Origin: Clostridia bacterium
GTDB lineage: Bacteria; Bacillota; Peptococcia; DRI-13; UBA5745
Length of the DNA: 64,000 bases
Direction of reading: 5' to 3'
Assembly (NCBI GenBank): GCA_018434325.1
Contig: JAHDPO010000023.1
Span: 1-64,000, forward strand
A model generated the notes under the pieces. The model was not told the DNA's origin and ran no database searches. It worked only from the letters and a program-made list of their open reading frames with translations. How positions within the stretch are numbered: the first letter of the stretch is position 1; every line of letters begins with the position of its first letter. Below, piece after piece: positions 3,241 through 64,000 of this stretch. Made by a program: the position numbers and the translations under genes.

Positions 3241-4983
3241 TCAGCGTCTTCTATCCTTCCTGCCTCCTTCAGGCTCGGCGGCATCCACATGGAAGTTTTT
3301 TAAAAAATTGACAATGCGCAGCCCCAGTTGGATTTCAAAAACCGTCTGGGTTTCCTTTAGATCGATCCCTAAAATACCCTCGATTTTTTCCACACGATAG
3401 ATCAGGGTATTGCGGTGCAGAAACATTTTCTTGGCGGCAATGCTGACATTCCCTCCACATTCAAAATATTGCTCCAGGGTCTCCACCAGATTAGTGCAGT
3501 TTTTTCTGTCATATTCAAGCAATAAACCCACGGCATACTGTGCAAACTCCTCCAGTATAACTTTGGGCACAGAATCTAAAAGGTGGTAAACCAACAGAGA
3601 TTCATAAAAAGAAACGCATCCTTCCTGCCCGATCTGGGCAGAAATCCGATTGGCCTCCCGCGCCTGCATATAACTCTTATGCATCTGAAAAAAATCCAGG
3701 CAGGGTTCTCCTACGCCAATGTCCAAAGAACCATGCAGTTTAGATAGAGAGGCGTGAATCTCGTTTACAAAATCCGACAGGTATAAGCTGCCTCTATGCT
3801 TTTTTTCATTTTCACTCATTAGGATAAAGGATATCAAAAGGTTGCCGCGATGAATGGAAATCACATTCTTTTTCCACGCGAAGGCCACCGCATCGATCTG
3901 ATTGATCAATTTTCTTTTCAGCTGCAAGAATAAATCTTTCTTTTCCGCTGTGTCGGTATTGGCAGTCTCTTCTGACTGCCTGATCCGGGTAACCATGCAG
4001 ACGTATTGCTTGCCGGCGTCCATGTAGTGAATCTCCGCCAAGCTGTTGACCGCATGCACCGATTCGATTTTGCCATGCAGCAGGTCATCGAAAAAATCCT
4101 TCCTGAGGTGGTGCTTGATCTCTTCGATCTGCTTGGACTTGATTCGTTCCAGCGCCACTGTAGTCGCTGCGCTTTCCAGAGCCATATATCCTATACTGGT
4201 CATCTTTTGCACCGTCTCCCAGGCAACCAGATAGCCATATATCGTTTTATCTGCAGCAACAGGCATCAGCCGGCAGGTAATGTCCCCTTCAGCATCGGGA
4301 TACCTGCGTTTGATGGATTTGGTAAATTGGTCGATGTTGCGGGGAACGCCCTCAAGAAATGCCGGAGGAAAAACCAGCTCTTTTTTGGACAAGTACAAAT
4401 GATCCTCCAGCCTTATCGGGTTGTTGGGATGGTCTGCGTAAGAAAGCAGTCTCCACCTGCTGTCAACAATGATAATCGGGTTGTTGATCAGCGTGCTCAC
4501 CAGCTTTGCGATCTCATCCAGGCTGCCGCCCTCCAAAACACACTGATTCAAGGTGTTATGGATGTGGATCAGTTTTTCCAGCATCGTATCTTTTCGTCTG
4601 GCAATTTCGTTTTCAATGACACTGGATACCTTGGCAAGACTTAAATGATAAGGGATCTCCACAATGGGCAAACCGTAACGGTCAGCCTCTCTCGCCATCT
4701 CGGGGGGTACTGCATCCAGGTATCGCTTTACCTTTATGCCGATCCCGGAGCAGTTGATCTCCGCAAGCTCGCGAATGATCTGCAGCTGCAAGTCCGGGTC
4801 ATCCTTGAATATGTATCCGGTGGTCATCAAAAAATCGCCGGCTGCCAGCCAGTCATAGGTGTCGGGATTATCCATGATGTTGACGCCGGAAATTTTGTTA
4901 TCAAGATACTCCTCTCCCGCTGCTACACGCAAACCTTTCAAGCTGTTATTTTCCAGCAATTGCTTGACCGTATAGTCCGGCAT
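3241..4983 (-). CDS. PucR-family transcriptional regulator
   Basis: A 580-residue regulator with the N-terminal PucR purine-catabolism sensor domain (residues 1-120, opening MPDYTVKQLLEN), a central region, and a C-terminal PucR helix-turn-helix (about 510-575; NVSIAAKKMFLHRNTLIYRV). PucR relatives control degradation of purines, allantoin and similar nitrogen compounds. The start at 4983 is preferred over an upstream in-frame ATG at 5013 because GCGGAGGAAAT lies just before it, while the upstream ATG has none. It has its own terminator and lies downstream of the TRAP and amidohydrolase genes, so it is the likely regulator of this island. Its ligand is unknown. Confidence 0.9.
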   Translation of the reverse strand: MPDYTVKQLLENNSLKGLRVAAGEEYLDNKISGVNIMDNPDTYDWLAAGDFLMTTGYIFKDDPDLQLQIIRELAEINCSGIGIKVKRYLDAVPPEMAREADRYGLPIVEIPYHLSLAKVSSVIENEIARRKDTMLEKLIHIHNTLNQCVLEGGSLDEIAKLVSTLINNPIIIVDSRWRLLSYADHPNNPIRLEDHLYLSKKELVFPPAFLEGVPRNIDQFTKSIKRRYPDAEGDITCRLMPVAADKTIYGYLVAWETVQKMTSIGYMALESAATTVALERIKSKQIEEIKHHLRKDFFDDLLHGKIESVHAVNSLAEIHYMDAGKQYVCMVTRIRQSEETANTDTAEKKDLFLQLKRKLINQIDAVAFAWKKNVISIHRGNLLISFILMSENEKKHRGSLYLSDFVNEIHASLSKLHGSLDIGVGEPCLDFFQMHKSYMQAREANRISAQIGQEGCVSFYESLLVYHLLDSVPKVILEEFAQYAVGLLLEYDRKNCTNLVETLEQYFECGGNVSIAAKKMFLHRNTLIYRVEKIEGILGIDLKETQTVFEIQLGLRIVNFLKNFHVDAAEPEGGRKDRRR

Positions 4984-5024
4984 GCCTATTTCCTCCGCTT
5001 GTTTCCGCATCATTATTATTCAAT

Positions 5025-54739: not shown

Positions 54740-57283
54740 CTAAAACGGCTCCGTACCGATGGAGATTTCTCCTGCCTTTATCAGTTCGACAAATATCCGG
54801 GCCATTTGGGGATCAAATTGAGTTCCCGCATGCTTCGAAATCTCTTCAATAGCGTAGCTTAAGCTTTGCTTTTGCCGGTAGGGCCGCTCCGTGGTCATAG
54901 CCTCAAAGGAATCGGCGATGGCCAAACAGCGGGCGGCTACGGGTATATCCTCACCGGCCATTCCCGCGGGATAGCCTTTTCCATCCCAGCGCTCATGATG
55001 GCCCACAGCGGCGGGAATGATATAATCCATGTGAGGCAGATGCCGAATGATATCGATGGAATTATTGACATGGCCCTTCATGATCTCATACTCTTCGGCA
55101 GTCAAGGGCTCTTCTTTGCTGAGAATGGCTTCGGGAATGCTTATCTTGCCGATATCATGAAGCAGCGAGGCTTCATAGACCAGCCTGATCTCATCGTCAT
55201 TCAGACCGATGGCGCAAGCCAGAATGCTGGCATATTTCGCTACATTCTGACTATGGCTGTAGGTATAATGGTCCTTGGCATCGATAGCCGCCGTCAAGGC
55301 CAAAATGGTGGAGGAATATTCTTCATAGGAGCTGCCGCTGACCATGTCGGGACGTTCAATGATCGTCATGACCCGTTCAATGATTTGAGAATTGGCCGCC
55401 AGTTGCCCCCGGTACAAGGTGATTTTCCCCTTGCCGGCATTCTTGGCATTATAGAGGGCCACATTGGCGGACTCAATCAACTCCTTGGAGCTGCCGGCCG
55501 TTTGGGGGCTGACCGAGATGCCGCCGCTTAAAGTCAAGGACTTCAGCTTGCTGCGCTGCGCGGAGATATTGATGGCATTAACCTGCTGCTGAATATCATT
55601 AGCCAATAAAACCGCCTGATCGCCGTCCAGGCCCGGCAGAAAAACAGCGAAGACCTTACCGCTGTAGCGAAAGATTATGCCCTTGTTTTCTGTGGTTTTG
55701 GCAATGATGTCGGCTATTTTTTTCAGGGCATAATCGCCTTCACCGATACCGTAAAGCTGGTTATACAGCTTAAAATCATCCACATCTAAAAAAAGCAGCG
55801 ATAAAAAGGTGCCTTTATATTTTTTATAAATATTATCGGCCTTTTCGATGAAATATTTATAATTATATACGCCCGTAAGCCCATCCACACGGGACTCCCG
55901 GTAAACCTGCTCGTACAGCGAGGCGTTTTTCATGGCAATGGACGTAATGGAGTTAACCGTATCCAGGAAGCTTAATTCCTCATAGGTAAAGGAGCCGTCT
56001 CTTCTTTTGCCGGTCAAAAGCACTAAGCCGGTAATATTTTCGCCATCCCGCAAAGCGCCTGCACAGCGTACGCCATAAGTCTGAAAAAGCTCTTTTTCCC
56101 GCTGCCAAAAAAACCGGTACCTCGAAGTGCCCCGGAAATCATCCAGCAGAAAATAGGACCCTTCCGTAAATAAATACTGGAGAACAGGGCTATCTTTGCC
56201 GATGTAAAGAGGCTCCGCCGCTCCCCCTTTTAGTCTGCACTTTTCACTGAAGCCCTCTCTGGAATCAACGCAGATATAGATTCCCTCTACCGGTATAATT
56301 TCGCCGATCACCTGGGCCAAAGCGGCCATAATCTCATCGCTGTCCAGGGATTTTGCTATTTTGCCGCTGAAATTCTTAACGACCTTACTCTGCTTTTCTT
56401 CCCGGGTAAAAATGACCTCGATGGCCTTTCGAAGAGTCATGTGAACGCCGATAAAAAACATGGAAAAAAACACTACCACAATAGCATTAACGTGGCTTTC
56501 CATCATGGGAAAAAGATCGAGGATAAAAGCCTCAATAGGCTCAACCCAATAGACTGCCGCCAAAAAACACAAGGCAATAGCAATAAAAAGCAGGACGTTG
56601 CGGGAAATCAGCAGCGTCATGCGAATACTGCGTTTTTTATATAAAGCAAAAATTAAAAATACGGCAAAGACTATACCGGACAAGCTATCCCAGGGAAAAA
56701 TATTGCCGGAAACCATTTGCATCATATTGCCCGCAGTAATTGACAGAAAGCCCAAAATAACCAGCAAAAGGCCGGGAGCATAGATGCCCCTATCCTTAAT
56801 CATTTTGGCGATAATGATTAAGATAGAGATCACAATACATAGCAGAACGACGAAAGGAATAGAGACTTTCCAGGTCATCTCATATAAAAAAGCCGCTCTA
56901 CTTTCATCTAATAATGACATAACAGGGGGTTTCAGAAAAACTCCCTGGGAAGTCAAAAATAAAAGAATAGCGGTAGTTATCGTCCATATCGTTTTTAATG
57001 GCTGGCCCTTGGTACCGGAAAAATCGCAGATGAAGAAAAAGATCAGTACCGGCAGGGTAAAAAGAGCCATGATAGAAAGGTAAAACCAAAAAGCCACTCC
57101 CGGATAGATTTGGAGCCGCATGAGCAAGGAGCCGCCGGACCATAGGATGAAAGCCAGGAGCACCAAAATGAATAGTTTGATTTCGGAAGTTCTTCTAACC
57201 GCTAAAAAAGCGGACAGCATCAAAACGTAACAGCATAGAGCCAGGATATTGATGTATAAAAAAGGAACTGTAACCGTACCCAC
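54740..57283 (-). CDS. 7TM-GAF-GGDEF-HD-GYP signalling protein
   Basis: An 847-residue membrane protein. About eight N-terminal helices (to 305) resemble the 7TM histidine-kinase sensor region; a GAF domain follows (about 330-475), then a GGDEF domain whose active-site loop reads YSGKVFAVF in place of GGDEF/GGEEF, so cyclase activity is probably lost. The C-terminal HD-GYP domain is intact: YSHSQNVAKYA, LLHDIGKISIP, AVGHHERWDGKGYP. It likely degrades cyclic di-GMP under control of a membrane signal. Start GTG 57283 follows a consensus AAGGAGGTGA. Confidence 0.9.
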   Translation of the reverse strand: MGTVTVPFLYINILALCCYVLMLSAFLAVRRTSEIKLFILVLLAFILWSGGSLLMRLQIYPGVAFWFYLSIMALFTLPVLIFFFICDFSGTKGQPLKTIWTITTAILLFLTSQGVFLKPPVMSLLDESRAAFLYEMTWKVSIPFVVLLCIVISILIIIAKMIKDRGIYAPGLLLVILGFLSITAGNMMQMVSGNIFPWDSLSGIVFAVFLIFALYKKRSIRMTLLISRNVLLFIAIALCFLAAVYWVEPIEAFILDLFPMMESHVNAIVVVFFSMFFIGVHMTLRKAIEVIFTREEKQSKVVKNFSGKIAKSLDSDEIMAALAQVIGEIIPVEGIYICVDSREGFSEKCRLKGGAAEPLYIGKDSPVLQYLFTEGSYFLLDDFRGTSRYRFFWQREKELFQTYGVRCAGALRDGENITGLVLLTGKRRDGSFTYEELSFLDTVNSITSIAMKNASLYEQVYRESRVDGLTGVYNYKYFIEKADNIYKKYKGTFLSLLFLDVDDFKLYNQLYGIGEGDYALKKIADIIAKTTENKGIIFRYSGKVFAVFLPGLDGDQAVLLANDIQQQVNAINISAQRSKLKSLTLSGGISVSPQTAGSSKELIESANVALYNAKNAGKGKITLYRGQLAANSQIIERVMTIIERPDMVSGSSYEEYSSTILALTAAIDAKDHYTYSHSQNVAKYASILACAIGLNDDEIRLVYEASLLHDIGKISIPEAILSKEEPLTAEEYEIMKGHVNNSIDIIRHLPHMDYIIPAAVGHHERWDGKGYPAGMAGEDIPVAARCLAIADSFEAMTTERPYRQKQSLSYAIEEISKHAGTQFDPQMARIFVELIKAGEISIGTEPF

Positions 57284-58698: not shown

Positions 58699-59841
58699 TT
58701 AGGCTTTCTTCTTGTCCGCAAACAATTGGGCCTGCCACTTGTAATAATTATGGATTAAATGCAAGGTATACCGGTCATTATCGCTGTGTACCGGGTCAAG
58801 CTCTAGCAGATTTTTGATTTGTTTTATTCTGAAGATAAGGGTATTGCGGTGAATATATAGGCTGTTTGCTGCCTCGGCTATATTCATATGGTGCAGCAGC
58901 AAAGCTTCCATGGTTTGAAAGAAAAGAGAATTGGCGGTAATCTCTTGCACATCTTCATGAAAGAAATGCTTCAATAATTCCAGCGGCGTATGCTCAAAAA
59001 TAATCTCGATCAAGTGATCAATAGCATAAGAAAGGCCCTTGGGGTCTGTGCGGCTGCGTTGCAGCGCCAGTTGGGCACAAGTATAGCTATGGGCATATTC
59101 CGGGATGCTTGATACGGTAAAACCAACACCCACAAAGGTCTGGCAGCCAAGACCGGATGCCAGATAGTTCTGCAACTGTAAAAAATATTCGTTACATTGA
59201 GCTTTTGCCGATAAGGCCTTTTTTGTCAATCTGCGGCAGAGCAGCAATTGGGAGTTTTCACTGATACCTACGATATCGCCGGCGTGAGAAAAGCGAAAGC
59301 TGCGGACTAATGTTGCCGCGGCAGCTAAAAGCTCTTGCTTCTGATACTCTTTACCGGGGATCTCCTCAAAATCAATAAGACAAACCACCCGGGGCAGCGT
59401 AAGGTCAATACCGGCTTCCGAAGCCAGCATGGAAATGAAGGATGCCTCTTCCGTTGCCGGCCCCCGTAAAAGCTGTTTAACAAACAAGGAATACTTATCT
59501 TTAATCATTTTGGGTGTGGCTTGCTTATCCGCAAGAAAGACGGCCTGTTCCAAAGAATAGACCATTGCCAAAGGACTTTCCGCCGACTCATAGTTTTCTG
59601 CCGGCAAAGACAGCAACAGATAAAAGCCTCCCGGCAGCAGAAGTGAAATTAAAATATATTGCCGGCCTCCCGATTTGAAAAAAGAAGCGGCTTTCCTGAT
59701 GGAGAAAAGCTCCGCAGTCAGCACCCGCAGAACAAATTTAGAGAATATTACATCCCGTGCTTTAGATAAAATCATGATATCCGATTGAGGAAAGGCTGAG
59801 CAAAGGGCCTTAAGTAAGCGTTCCAGTTCCTTGTTGGTCAT
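58699..59841 (-). CDS. PucR/CdaR-type transcriptional regulator
   Basis: A 380-residue regulator whose C-terminal 65 residues are the PucR-type helix-turn-helix (NIAEAANSLYIHRNTLIFRIKQIKNLLELD, with key residues A, H, R, N, T). A GGDEF-like middle region (about 130-260) is usual for CdaR. The N-terminal 120 residues are not a clear known sensor. AAAGGAG precedes the ATG. The gene starts inside the end of the upstream regulator gene (32-bp overlap), so both are made together. Confidence 0.85.
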   Translation of the reverse strand: MTNKELERLLKALCSAFPQSDIMILSKARDVIFSKFVLRVLTAELFSIRKAASFFKSGGRQYILISLLLPGGFYLLLSLPAENYESAESPLAMVYSLEQAVFLADKQATPKMIKDKYSLFVKQLLRGPATEEASFISMLASEAGIDLTLPRVVCLIDFEEIPGKEYQKQELLAAAATLVRSFRFSHAGDIVGISENSQLLLCRRLTKKALSAKAQCNEYFLQLQNYLASGLGCQTFVGVGFTVSSIPEYAHSYTCAQLALQRSRTDPKGLSYAIDHLIEIIFEHTPLELLKHFFHEDVQEITANSLFFQTMEALLLHHMNIAEAANSLYIHRNTLIFRIKQIKNLLELDPVHSDNDRYTLHLIHNYYKWQAQLFADKKKA

Positions 59842-61864
59842 GATATATCTCCTTTTCCTTCAACAGACCTTTAATCAGAAAATGCTCCTGAATGGAAGCA
59901 TAAACCCTTTTTGCGGTTTCTTGCCACAGTTCCTTCTCCTCTGCCGCCGGCTGTATAATCTTCATCCCTTTGGCCGCCAGTTCTGTCCTGGCTTCCAAAT
60001 TAACTCTTTCCGCCTCCGATAGCATCCAGCGGCAGGTTTCGTCAAAAGCAGACTGGGTTATGTCCCGCAAATGGCCGGGTAAACGCTCCCAGGCCGATTT
60101 TGAAAACAAAACCGCATTGACGTCATAAATAGAATTCAATTCTGTCACAAACTTTTGCTTTTTATAAAATTCCATAGCCAATATATTGGAATAGGGATTT
60201 TCCTGACAATCAATGGCTCCCGTTTCCAAAGCTTCCGGGACGTCATTATAATTGGCCATAACGACGTTAGCTCCCATGGAATGGTAAAACTCTTTGATGA
60301 TTTTTGCAAAAACCACGACTCGGATTCGTTTATTTCGCATATCTGCCGGTATATGGATGGGCTCATTAGAGGTTATATACCGCCAGCCCATGCTCCAGAA
60401 ACCGGCCAATACGGCTCCCATAGCGTGAAGGGCCGGAAACATTTCCTTCCTTACATAACCGTTGAGCAGATAACTTGCTTCCTCCGCCGAATCAAACAAA
60501 AAAGGCAGCTCCAGTATATGGGGCCAACCTTTGAGAGAGTTAAACAGCAGGCCGCTATTAACGGAAACACAGTCGATCTTGCCGCTGCAAGCAGACTCAA
60601 ATAATTGGCGGTAATCCCCTGCTTTCGAGATAACTTCAATATTCAATTGCATTCTGCCGTCGCTCATTTGCTGAAGAAGCTGCGAAAATTTTTCCAGGCC
60701 TCTTTGTTGGATATTGCCGGAATGAATATTGACGCAAGCATGCCAGGTAATGGTCTGGCTTTTAAAAAGAGAGTAGCAATACATGGAAGCCCTGTCCACA
60801 TCATTATGCAGGGGGTCCGCGGCCAAGGCTCCCTGAGCCTTGCTAAAACGTTGTAAAATAGTATTGCGGTGGATGCCCAACTCCTCTGCCCCATGGGTCA
60901 AATTATTATTGTTTGTGGTTATGGCTTCAAGGGTCTCTTCCATAGTTTTGGAGTTGGCAAGGGCCAGGTCATAATCCCGAAAAATAATCTCCTTAAATTC
61001 TTCGGGAAGCAAAGTCGACAGATAAGAAAACAGGTATTTGTTTATCGTCAGACAGGCGTAGCCTTTCTTATTCAAAAACTGAGAATTATTGCTCAAAAAT
61101 TGGGCTTCCAGGAAGCTGTTGTGAAGCTGCTCCAGCTTTACGTAAGGGCTGCCTGCAAAAGCATAAGCTGATATTTGATACACAGTGCCGAGGGTTCCGA
61201 TAAGATCCTCGGCATATCTTTTGGCTTCGGCGATTTTTTCCCTAAAACTTTTACCGCCGATGCTTTTAAATACTAAAATTTTATTTTGGCTGATGGGACC
61301 AAAGATGTCTTCAGCAGAAAAATGAGGAGATGCGGCATGTAAAAGATTAAAGGCCGTCTGGAAATTGACAGGACCGTTATCATCCTGAGTCGGCGGCAAA
61401 CAAAACAAAACGGCACAACGGGGCAATCCGAAAGAATATTGCAAAAGTTTCATAAAGGATAATATTTCCCAGTTTGTTTTGTCATAAAAGGCCAGTTGAT
61501 TAGCTAACTGGGTGCGGACGTCTTGACGCCACTGGGAATTTGTATCTGAAATACTATTCAGCAGTAAATCCAGCATGGAAAAAATGAAAGGGAAGGTTGA
61601 CGAAGGCGCAGCACAGTCAAAAGCCAGAACATAGCCCATCATCCTCCCGTTTAGATGATAGGGCCTTATTTCAAAGGTATACTCCCTTTGCAGCTGCCGA
61701 AAATCCTTTTGACGGCAACAGTTTTTAATCCTTGCCTTATCGAAAGCATCAGGATCAGTAAAGACCAAAATATTGCCCTCATCATCACATATACAAACTG
61801 GAAAAGTCAGAGCATTCCGGATATTAGCCACAAGGAATTCTTGTTGAAGGGGTGTCAGCCACAC
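59810..61864 (-). CDS. CdaR-type regulator fused to a DctP (TRAP receptor) domain
   Basis: About 684 residues. Residues 1-120 resemble the sugar-diacid recognition domain (VCICDDEGNILVFTDPD), followed by a GGDEF-like middle and a helix-turn-helix near 320-365 (HGAEELGIHRNTILQRFSKA). The remaining 300 residues are a DctP solute receptor: ELPFLFDSAEEASYLL, MRNKRIRVVVFAKII, GAIDCQENPYSNIL and LFSKSAWERLP. There is no signal peptide, so the receptor domain is cytoplasmic and probably senses ligand. GTG 61864 is preferred because AGAGGAGG precedes it; the frame opens 20 codons earlier. Confidence 0.85.
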   Translation of the reverse strand: MWLTPLQQEFLVANIRNALTFPVCICDDEGNILVFTDPDAFDKARIKNCCRQKDFRQLQREYTFEIRPYHLNGRMMGYVLAFDCAAPSSTFPFIFSMLDLLLNSISDTNSQWRQDVRTQLANQLAFYDKTNWEILSFMKLLQYSFGLPRCAVLFCLPPTQDDNGPVNFQTAFNLLHAASPHFSAEDIFGPISQNKILVFKSIGGKSFREKIAEAKRYAEDLIGTLGTVYQISAYAFAGSPYVKLEQLHNSFLEAQFLSNNSQFLNKKGYACLTINKYLFSYLSTLLPEEFKEIIFRDYDLALANSKTMEETLEAITTNNNNLTHGAEELGIHRNTILQRFSKAQGALAADPLHNDVDRASMYCYSLFKSQTITWHACVNIHSGNIQQRGLEKFSQLLQQMSDGRMQLNIEVISKAGDYRQLFESACSGKIDCVSVNSGLLFNSLKGWPHILELPFLFDSAEEASYLLNGYVRKEMFPALHAMGAVLAGFWSMGWRYITSNEPIHIPADMRNKRIRVVVFAKIIKEFYHSMGANVVMANYNDVPEALETGAIDCQENPYSNILAMEFYKKQKFVTELNSIYDVNAVLFSKSAWERLPGHLRDITQSAFDETCRWMLSEAERVNLEARTELAAKGMKIIQPAAEEKELWQETAKRVYASIQEHFLIKGLLKEKEIYHDQQGTGTLT

Positions 61865-62125
61865 TGCACAAAGCCTCCTCTCACTCAAGGATAAGCGGCG
61901 ATCAAAATAACAACTATTCATCATAATGTCTCAATAAGACCAGGCTGTCAATACAGTCTTGCTTTACAAGTTTTTCCATGTGCAGTCAGCACAATTTTTC
62001 CCTCAAAATATTGGCCTTCGGTTATATTGTTTTACAGGCCGGAGAAATGCTACCCTATAGACAAATGAGAGGCCTCTTATTTTATCAGCACCTATATTGT
62101 TTTTTCTGAATCATCTGGTTTTTTA

Positions 62126-62178: not shown

Positions 62179-63519
62179 ATGAATTTATATACCATGCTGC
62201 AGCAAAAGCAGAGTCAAGGCGCTCCCTTGCGGGTAGGCATCATTGGCACAGGTAAATTCGGCACCATGTATCTTTCTCAGGTCAGGAAAGTACCGGGAGT
62301 TCATCTCGTCGGTATTGCCGAGCTTAACATGCCCCGGGCTTTCGACAATTTACAGCGTACCCTTTGGCCCAAAGAACAAGTGGATGCCAAGACATTGGAA
62401 GAAGCTTATAACACAGGCAAAACCTGCGTCATGGACAGCGGTGACGATCTAATCGCTTCCCCCTTTACCGAAATTATTATCGACTGTACCGGCGACCCTG
62501 AGCTGGGCATCAAGAACACTTTACGCTGCTGTCAATACGGCAAGCATATCGTAAACGTCAATGTGGAAAGCGACGCTTTGGCCGGCCCGCTGCTGGCAAA
62601 AAGAGCGGCTGCTGCCGGCATCGTCTACTCCCTGGCTTACGGCGACCAGCCTGCCATGATCTGCGAAATGGTGGACTGGGCAAGAGCCGCCGGTTTTGAA
62701 GTGGTCTGCGCCGGCAAAGGCACCCGTTTTCAGCCCATATATCATCAGTCCACTCCAGATACTATCTGGGGTTACTACGGCATATCTCCTGAAAATGCCG
62801 CCAAAGGCGGCATGAATCCCAAGGTGTTCAACTCCTTCCTTGATGGTACAAAATCGGCCATTGAGATGGCTGCCGTTTCCAACGCCACCGGTCTGCTGCC
62901 CAATAGTACCGGCCTGCTGTTTCCCCCCTGCGGCGCCGACGATCTGCCCCGTATTTTGAAGCCTAAGTCTGCCGGCGGCATTCTTGAGCAAAGCGGCATG
63001 GTGGAAGTGGTGGCCAGCGAAGAACGGGATTACCGCCCGGTCTACCGGGATTTGCGTTTTGGTATTTATATCACGCTGAAGGGTGATTCGGAATACATGA
63101 TGAATTGCTATAAAGAATACGGCATGGTCACCGATGAAACCGGCGAATATACTTGCCTTTACCGTCCTAATCACATGATCGGCCTGGAGATGAATTTATC
63201 TGTGGCTTCTGTGGGAGTACGCCGGGAACCTACGGGCTGTCCCAGAGCCTTTAATGCCGACGTGGTTTCCGTTGCCAAATGTGATATTCCCAAAGGAACA
63301 ATACTGGACGGCGAAGGCGGTTATTACGTCTATGGCGAAGTCCTGCCGGCAAAGACCTCTGTGGAAAAAGGCTGCCTGCCCCTGGGTTTTAGCGGCAATA
63401 AAAAAGTTTTACGCGACATCAAAGCCGGGGAAATTCTTACCTATGATGCCATCGAATACGACAGCAGCTGCCTGACCATGGAAATCCGGCGGGAGCTTGA
63501 GGCAATGGCCAAAAAATAA
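62179..63519 (+). CDS. SAF-domain, homoserine-dehydrogenase-like NAD(P) oxidoreductase
   Basis: A 446-residue protein. The N-terminal Rossmann motif VGIIGTGKFGTMYL near residue 20 and IIDCTGDPELGIKN near 95 resemble homoserine dehydrogenase; the C-terminal 100 residues (VSVAKCDIPKGTILDGEGGYYVYGEV) are a SAF domain. Such proteins occur in sugar-acid catabolic operons; the reaction is not established. Strong AGGAGGAAAA site. First of the operon that continues past the window, divergent from the DctP-fused regulator. Confidence 0.85.
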   Translation: MNLYTMLQQKQSQGAPLRVGIIGTGKFGTMYLSQVRKVPGVHLVGIAELNMPRAFDNLQRTLWPKEQVDAKTLEEAYNTGKTCVMDSGDDLIASPFTEIIIDCTGDPELGIKNTLRCCQYGKHIVNVNVESDALAGPLLAKRAAAAGIVYSLAYGDQPAMICEMVDWARAAGFEVVCAGKGTRFQPIYHQSTPDTIWGYYGISPENAAKGGMNPKVFNSFLDGTKSAIEMAAVSNATGLLPNSTGLLFPPCGADDLPRILKPKSAGGILEQSGMVEVVASEERDYRPVYRDLRFGIYITLKGDSEYMMNCYKEYGMVTDETGEYTCLYRPNHMIGLEMNLSVASVGVRREPTGCPRAFNADVVSVAKCDIPKGTILDGEGGYYVYGEVLPAKTSVEKGCLPLGFSGNKKVLRDIKAGEILTYDAIEYDSSCLTMEIRRELEAMAKK

Positions 63520-63540
63520 AGCATTGGAGGAGTACACCCA

Positions 63541-64000
63541 TGACCAAAAACAAAGCAGTCATTGCCGGCGCCGGCTTAATGGGCGCCTCTCTGGCCCAGG
63601 TATATGCCGAGGCCGGCTATGAAGTTGTTTTATACGACCTGGCTGACGAATTCCTGGAACGGGGCCAAAAGCTGATTGCCTTAAATCAGGCTACTATGGT
63701 AAAAGAAGAGATGCTGACTCAGGAGGATTCCGATGCTTTAATAGCCCGCATCGCTTATACCTGCGACGACAGCTGCTTCGCCGACCCTCAATTAACCATT
63801 ATTCTCGAAACAATCATTGAAAAGTTAGATATTAAGCAAGATTTTTGGGCAAAGGTTTCCGACCTGGCCAACCCTGACTGCTTGCTGGCCTCCAATACCT
63901 CCGGCCTGCACATCGGTGATATTGCGGCAAAAATGGAGCATAAGGACCGTTTTATGGGCCAGCATTGGCTAAACCCCCCTCATCTCCTGCCTTTATGCGA
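63541..64000 (+). CDS. 3-hydroxyacyl-CoA dehydrogenase family protein (partial)
   Basis: The first 153 codons of an NAD-dependent dehydrogenase cut by the window edge. AVIAGAGLMGASLAQVYAEAG is the Rossmann motif at residues 7-27 and SNTSGLHI near 120 holds the serine-asparagine pair of the family; GQHWLNPP carries the catalytic histidine. Relatives act on 3-hydroxyacyl-CoA, carnitine or gulonate; with SAF and CdaR neighbours a sugar-acid or hydroxy-acid is plausible. GGAGGAG precedes the ATG. Confidence 0.85.

Follow-up and report, generated by a model that had tools for sequence, protein, structure and literature searches.

A TRAP solute-binding domain carried behind the helix-turn-helix of a PucR/CdaR-type regulator as a candidate carboxylate sensor inside the cell

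Receptors of tripartite ATP-independent periplasmic (TRAP) transporters are known as exported proteins. Why, then, should a complete receptor of this family, a DctP domain, be joined to a DNA-binding protein? The question is raised by one gene in the first 64,000 nucleotides of contig JAHDPO010000023.1 of a Clostridia bacterium (GCA_018434325.1), the whole of which is called the window here. We consider it likely, judging from sequence and predicted structure, that this fusion and a second regulator encoded directly after it form a cytoplasmic pair, which would control a divergent TRAP operon and use an internalised TRAP receptor domain to sense a carboxylate. Seven such fusions were found in two phyla, namely the window's, one from the same genus (locus L040), one from Dysosmobacter (L041) and four spirochaete copies, of which three are full-length and one is shortened. 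In the window the fusion is composed as follows, with residues counted from the GTG at 61864:

59813..61864, minus strand: fusion regulator, 684 amino acids from GTG 61864 (stop codon 59810-59812; in-frame ATG at 61924)
61550..61864, minus strand: N-terminal domain, residues about 1-105 (AlphaFold model, block means mostly 69-90; hhalign)
61100..61468, minus strand: GGDEF-like region (GGDEF_2, PF17853), residues 133-255 (Pfam E 8e-4, below the cut-off)
60806..60937, minus strand: HTH_30 (PF13556, the PucR C-terminal helix-turn-helix), residues 310-353 (Pfam E 1e-7)
59888..60721, minus strand: DctP (TRAP solute-binding, PF03480) domain, residues 382-659 (Pfam E 6e-55, AlphaFold, Foldseek)

The minus-strand frame (59810-61924) holds 704 open codons. 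The GTG start, which an earlier sequence-only reading of the window had also chosen, seems better supported than the ATG at 61924, because a good ribosome-binding site (AGAGGAGG) precedes it, because the residues upstream are out of frame and then meet a stop in the nearest relative (96% identical), and because the Dysosmobacter and full-length spirochaete homologues start at about the same residue. That reading had also proposed that a GGDEF-like region is followed by a helix-turn-helix (HTH) and then by a full DctP, an order which proves right. HTH_30 scores 31.8 bits against a cut-off of 27 in the window and likewise lies above it in L041, in the spirochaete locus L042 and in all three other spirochaete fusions. 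GGDEF_2 is fainter, with 20.0 bits in the window against a cut-off of 24.5, 17.3-20.7 bits in three spirochaete fusions and 26.5 bits, above the cut-off, in the Dysosmobacter homologue; a Pfam scan did not find it in the shortened copy. The DctP match reaches 187 bits (cut-off 23.4), while Pfam gave no SBP_bac_5 match in the window fusion; the domain is modelled with a predicted local distance difference test (pLDDT) score above 90 over most of its length, and its closest solved structure is the TRAP receptor 4p47 (Foldseek E 4.6e-22). In all seven fusions the HRNT motif of the HTH and its surroundings are kept, the HTH is not the C-terminal end, since about 300 residues of DctP come after it, and the distance from HRNT to the first DctP strand is identical (42 or 43, according to where the search pattern starts). 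Neither a signal peptide nor a membrane helix was found in any of the seven, whose highest 19-residue hydropathy is 1.04-1.68, in agreement with the absence of a signal peptide claimed before. Unlike them, six stand-alone operon DctPs begin with hydrophobic, lipoprotein-like leaders.

The front of the protein fits its earlier description less well. In the AlphaFold model the N-terminal domain is a compact alpha/beta fold (alpha-beta-beta-alpha-alpha-beta-beta-alpha), PAS-like by shape only; it is present in six of the seven fusions and resembles a small sensor fold. It had been called diacid-recognition-like, an assignment that finds no support: Diacid_rec (PF05651) gave no match at E 10 among the window proteins and none at 0.01 or 0.05 in the other fusions scanned, and hhalign found only a weak likeness to seven CdaR-like N-termini (61% over 35 columns). 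Pfam did not detect the PucR N-terminal domain in the fusion either. The label CdaR-type thus stands as far as the PucR/CdaR-type (HTH_30) superfamily is concerned and is unsupported for CdaR proper, as Diacid_rec was found in no fusion scanned.

A joined frame of this kind might be an error of sequencing or assembly, or a one-off. Nothing was found in favour of this idea beyond the fact that two of the genomes and G004, the relative that carries L040, are recorded as metagenome-assembled genomes (MAGs), where such errors can occur. Scanned with a pattern, the genomes of 84,980 species gave three loci, L040 (96% identity), L041 in a Dysosmobacter MAG (52%) and L042 in a Spirochaetales MAG (HTH-DctP part only, 35%). 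In searches of whole-genome samples, the fusion was found in 2 of 40 relatives (the window genome itself, G000, and G004), in 1 of 398 genomes of the window phylum (G000 itself), in 1 of 350 genomes of the Dysosmobacter genome's family and 1 of 86 of its genus (that genome itself both times), in 1 of 344 genomes of the spirochaete phylum (G423 itself) and in 4 of 139 genomes of the spirochaete family (G423 and the three new full-length copies of G1292, G1295 and G1264), counts that give an upper-level impression of rarity only: the samples are draws and not the whole of GTDB, the 398-, 350- and 344-genome searches scored only two or three candidates per genome, and the 344-genome search missed the three fusions found in the 139-genome one. 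No match to an HTH-side query was found in a plasmid collection, and no relative of the fusion in viral contigs. Across the seven loci the identity in the DctP part falls to 32-40%, with the junction spacing unchanged. Between the window and G004, the numbers of nonsynonymous (dN) and synonymous (dS) substitutions per site are 0.018 and 0.260 over the whole frame (dN/dS 0.070) and 0.017 and 0.193 over the DctP part (dN/dS 0.090), and dN is 0 in a 65-codon HTH stretch, so that purifying selection acts over the whole fusion frame. The same junction in seven loci of two phyla, with identical spacing and under purifying selection, leaves an artefact or isolated fusion a negligible probability, and we reject it. 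Both doubts that the sequence-only reading had raised against itself are thereby answered: a frame joined by sequencing error is ruled out by these loci, and absence from other genomes by the six further occurrences of the architecture.

One of these copies departs from the rest. The G423 copy (L141 14246-15451) has a TTG start and lacks the first 290 or so residues, and it may be a relic, a minimal form or a gene put to different use.

If the fusion is real, does its DctP domain still bind a ligand? The arginine of beta-strand 6 (R515 in the window) is kept in all seven fusions and, in an alignment read by eye, in 34 of 35 stand-alone DctP rows. It corresponds to Arg147 of SiaP; this arginine is described as binding the ligand carboxylate (PMC5812351) and as the residue that limits the TRAP family of receptors to carboxylates (PMC4646407). 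Also kept in seven of seven are R495 and the QENP motif (QENPYSN in the window); ELPFLF, WS(M)GWRYIT and QENP are invariant among the fusions, and the pocket motifs are among their most conserved parts. It could be argued that the domain has lost ligand binding and serves oligomerisation or protein contact, for example by holding the partner or by docking DctQM at the membrane, with the N-terminal domain or the partner reading the signal. That some TRAP receptors dimerise, as the SiaP paper reports (PMC5812351), and that six of the seven fusions have a small-sensor-like N-terminal domain would suit such a role. Yet the best-kept parts of the fusions include ELPFLF, WSMGWRYIT, QENP and the beta-6 arginine; between the window and Dysosmobacter the DctP part is 61% identical as against 44% for the N-terminal plus HTH part; and the shortened G423 copy retains the HTH and DctP with the N-terminal part gone. 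We regard a pure contact role as improbable, and retention of a carboxylate-binding pocket as the better account of the domain.

The descent of the domain bears on what it may bind. In a tree of 70 DctP rows, the fused DctPs form one clade (100/100), which falls within a clade of 17 rows (99/97; two of them, L102 and L103, are duplicates of the fusions themselves and are not to be counted) together with the exported DctPs encoded opposite the pair in spirochaetes and a small number from Clostridia. Rows shorter than 220 residues were dropped (180 in an earlier tree), as were L006, L008, L030, L072 and L074 as long branches; L077, L102 and L103 duplicate rows already in the tree, and the support for the fusion clade is unaffected. 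The composition of the 17-row clade suggests that the sensor came from a subfamily that in spirochaetes still feeds the neighbouring transporter. The clostridial operon DctPs fall in other subfamilies, and derivation of the fused domain from the window operon's own DctP is unsupported, as the two sit in different clades. From the window to Dysosmobacter, identity is much higher in the fused DctP than in the exported one (61% vs 29%), which fits a sensor tied to a pathway compound and not to one transporter. The neighbours of five sister stand-alone DctPs are mixed, comprising what we take to be, from their first residues only, peptidases, oxidases of the lactate/glycolate kind linked to flavin adenine dinucleotide, and others; because of this mixture no ligand is named from them.

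The fusion does not stand alone on its strand:

58702..59841, minus strand: partner regulator, 380 amino acids, GGDEF_2 plus HTH_30 (stop codon 58699-58701; Pfam, tree)

A second HTH_30 gene of 370-388 codons follows the fusion directly and in the same direction in seven of seven loci, overlapping or abutting it; every locus checked has an overlap, of 32 bp in the window, where the partner's start reaches into the fusion's end including its stop codon, and 44, 50 and 26 bp in the three full-length spirochaetes. In the partner, unlike in the fusion, the chain ends with HTH_30. In a tree of the GGDEF-HTH part, the seven fusions and the seven partners each form a clade, and the two clades are sisters (99/96) relative to 16 other CdaR-like rows; both show the split between Clostridia and spirochaetes, with broadly the same branching order. 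Among 60 relatives searched, a close match to the partner occurs only in G000 and G004, both of which hold the fusion. These relationships indicate that the partner is a sister paralogue of the fusion's regulatory half. The plainest history would start with a single tandem duplication, after which one copy acquired DctP and both genes were inherited or transferred together.

Upstream of the pair, on the other strand, lies the operon that it may control:

62179..63519, plus strand: first gene of the divergent operon, a DRL-type oxidoreductase that has a SAF domain (Pfam)
63540..64000, plus strand: second gene of the divergent operon, 3-hydroxyacyl-CoA dehydrogenase-like and truncated at the window end
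L043 6492-11167, beyond the window: IlvD/EDD-type dehydratase, DctP, DctQ and DctM

The divergence from a catabolic operon noted before is thus borne out, and the operon, followed beyond the window, also encodes a TRAP transporter. The transporter, the overlapping sister regulator, the shared intergenic motif described below and the spirochaete occurrence all go beyond that earlier description. In both loci of the window genus, the pair is divergent from an operon with this gene content, and in all three full-length spirochaete loci it is directly divergent from DctP-DctQ-DctM. This amounts to five of seven loci. A sixth is inferred across a contig gap in Dysosmobacter, where the operon lies at the end of contig C27 and the fusion at the start of contig C43, both reading away from the contig end, with 314 bp from the operon's first gene to the contig end and 322 bp from the contig start to the fusion; each of the two ends lies in a repeat that occurs at 10 places, always at a contig end. 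Operon and fusion are presumed to be neighbours there. No TRAP genes were found beside the shortened G423 copy. The constant neighbour of the pair is the TRAP transporter, and the enzymes vary between phyla. As the pair stands opposite transporter genes in two unrelated bacterial groups, the fusion probably reads an imported nutrient from within.

Some further observations concern this operon. The DRL-SAF, 3-hydroxyacyl-CoA dehydrogenase-like and IlvD-type enzymes travel together, at 62179-64000 and L043 4179-11167 in the window genus and on L078 in Dysosmobacter, where they are 78, 59 and 85% identical to the window's, as against 29-37% for the TRAP system, which has been exchanged. In 299 genomes of the phylum, no other match to the DRL protein exceeds 38% identity. 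A literature search gave no support to a D-apionate pathway as the role of the operon. The Dysosmobacter repeat (L079 1-72 and the last 72 bases of L078) carries palindromic GGCGAAAATCGCC-like units, stands at no fewer than 10 contig ends of that genome (G422) and is probably the end of a multi-copy mobile element.

What might the pair recognise between the two transcripts? The intergenic stretch offers two candidates:

61979..61993, no strand: candidate operator, the perfect dyad TGTGC-N5-GCACA; TGTRY-N5-GCACR matches nowhere else in the 64-kb window
61923..61951, minus strand: weak promoter-like hexamers upstream of the fusion (TTGACA and CATTAT, 17 nt apart)

The single match to TGTRY-N5-GCACR in the window compares with 0.42 expected in 64 kb. 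The motif also occurs in G004, at each of the two Dysosmobacter contig ends and once in G1264, while G1292 has two copies, as has G1295 (the only matches in 20 kb, with 0.26 expected); the 18-kb contig of the shortened G423 locus has no match. When all patterns composed of a 3-mer, a gap of 0-15 and a 4-mer were counted (about 262,000), TGT-N7-GCAC was the only one with at least four G+C present in all six intergenic stretches, and it remained the sole such pattern after related stretches were dropped. Patterns common in this way arose in none of 60 Markov sets and none of 600 exact dinucleotide shuffles. For the first count, the G004 stretch was omitted because it nearly duplicates that of the window, and the Dysosmobacter contig ends were used without their first 72 bases, which are repeat. 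There are nine sites in all, with the palindromic ones of the window and G004 counted once each, and six of the nine have one half TGTAT instead of TGTGC, an asymmetry that a heterodimer, if the pair forms one, would explain.

As far as the sequence goes, the same parts might act with either sign. The pair could be a repressor that leaves the DNA on ligand binding or one that shuts uptake when the acid accumulates, in keeping with a motif that lies near both transcripts. Against repression, the centre of the window motif lies about 35 bp upstream of the fusion's -35-like hexamer, a placement more usual for activators, although the promoter match itself is at chance level (one found, 1.2 expected in shuffles). 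Repression seems rather unlikely to us, though less so than a pure contact role for DctP, and activation is the sign assumed below.

The sequences themselves establish the architecture and its conservation, the lack of an export signal, the pairing, the link to TRAP genes, the kept binding residues and the shared motif. We infer ligand binding by the fused domain, DNA binding at the motif, formation of a heteromer, and activation rather than repression. The fusion would be a one-component transcription regulator of the cytoplasm, with the captured DctP domain as its sensor. Attached to the helix behind the HTH without a linker and at constant spacing, the clamshell of this domain would bind the organic acid imported by the divergent TRAP transporter, or a close metabolite. 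Its closure in the cytoplasm would alter the HTH and shift how the fusion and its sister regulator, acting together and probably as a heteromer, sit on TGTRY-N5-GCACR between the divergent transcripts. The TRAP and catabolic operon would be switched on, and perhaps the pair's own transcript too. It would be tempting to go further, though we hold this extension to be tentative and somewhat doubtful: two copies of a single fold might measure the same acid, one outside for uptake and one inside for gene control; the paralogues with and without the sensor might form an asymmetric heterodimer whose halves read TGTGC and TGTAT; and the cassette, operator included, might have been transferred between Clostridia and spirochaetes, with transporters and pathways replaced along the way.

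Several points weigh against the proposed account. The fused and operon DctPs share only 27% identity over 211 residues in the window genome and 20% in Dysosmobacter, and their different subfamilies leave a ligand shared with the transporter unsupported in Clostridia; the pocket could serve another metabolite. In the AlphaFold model (mean 75, predicted TM-score 0.53) the middle is uncertain, and the pLDDT of the GGDEF-like region is about 33-54, so that the coupling between domains is unseen. The motif was first spotted by eye in the same sequences, and the unbiased count came afterwards. Finally, the shortened G423 copy, which still has the partner gene, HTH and DctP, does so without its first 290 or so residues, TRAP neighbours or the operator motif.

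How does such a protein compare with known ones? In AmiC-AmiR, a solute-binding-protein fold inside the cell senses an amide and controls gene expression. That system consists of two separate proteins and acts by antitermination, whereas the fusion unites receptor and HTH in one chain. Compared with TRAP solute-binding proteins such as 4p47 and SiaP, the fused DctP has the complete fold, the carboxylate-binding arginine and the QENP motif, but, attached to a DNA-binding protein and having no signal peptide, it is expected to stay in the cytoplasm, where it could not act for DctQM as a receptor in the periplasm or at the surface. PucR/CdaR-type regulators, among which MabR and 3onq are the solved relatives (PMC11617747), share HTH_30, the GGDEF-like region before it, which is only faintly matched in most of the fusions, and the adjoining catabolic genes; in them HTH_30 is the C-terminal end, where the fusion adds a DctP part of about 300 residues. 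SgrR-type regulators, such as SgrR of E. coli and DsvR of Vibrio, are cytoplasmic transcription factors in which an HTH comes first and a complete solute-binding fold follows; DsvR is described as having an N-terminal HTH with a C-terminal SBP_bac5 domain (PMC13060122). There, however, the receptor belongs to SBP_bac_5, a family of ATP-binding cassette (ABC) importers, and not to the TRAP family, and the DNA-binding family is another one, whereas the HTH_30 of the fusion is preceded by GGDEF-like and N-terminal domains and comes with a partner gene that looks obligate and with a TRAP operon reading the other way. The fusion would thus work like SgrR-type regulators but is not a member of that group. 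Pfam domains of the solute-binding-protein (SBP) type also serve as sensor domains of transcriptional regulators, according to a survey (PMC9602780). Regulators fused to solute-binding domains being already known from SgrR-like proteins, what is new here is the TRAP family as cytoplasmic sensor, its placement after HTH_30, the partner and the operator. No earlier description of a DctP-HTH_30 protein was found in the one open-access library searched.

A TRAP receptor thus appears to have been turned into a cytoplasmic allosteric domain, and to have been kept by selection with its partner and operator over a great evolutionary distance. It offers a natural example of a solute-binding fold coupled to an HTH without a flexible linker, and, in the pair, a case open to testing in which the sensor sits on just one of two regulators. 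The fusion may also provide a ready carboxylate sensor for biosensor work, and a ligand handle for orphan TRAP operons.

Elsewhere in the data, two 262-codon open reading frames flank each other beside a TRAP operon in genome G038 (L114 2643-3428 and 4431-5216), with the first 90 or so residues identical, which points to a recent duplication or an assembly repeat. The window itself holds a second, ordinary PucR-type regulator (3241-5013, minus strand; PF07905, GGDEF_2, HTH_30) and, at 54740-57283 on the minus strand, an 847-residue protein in which, as read by eye from the translation, a membrane part and GAF-like, GGDEF and HD-GYP domains stand in one chain.

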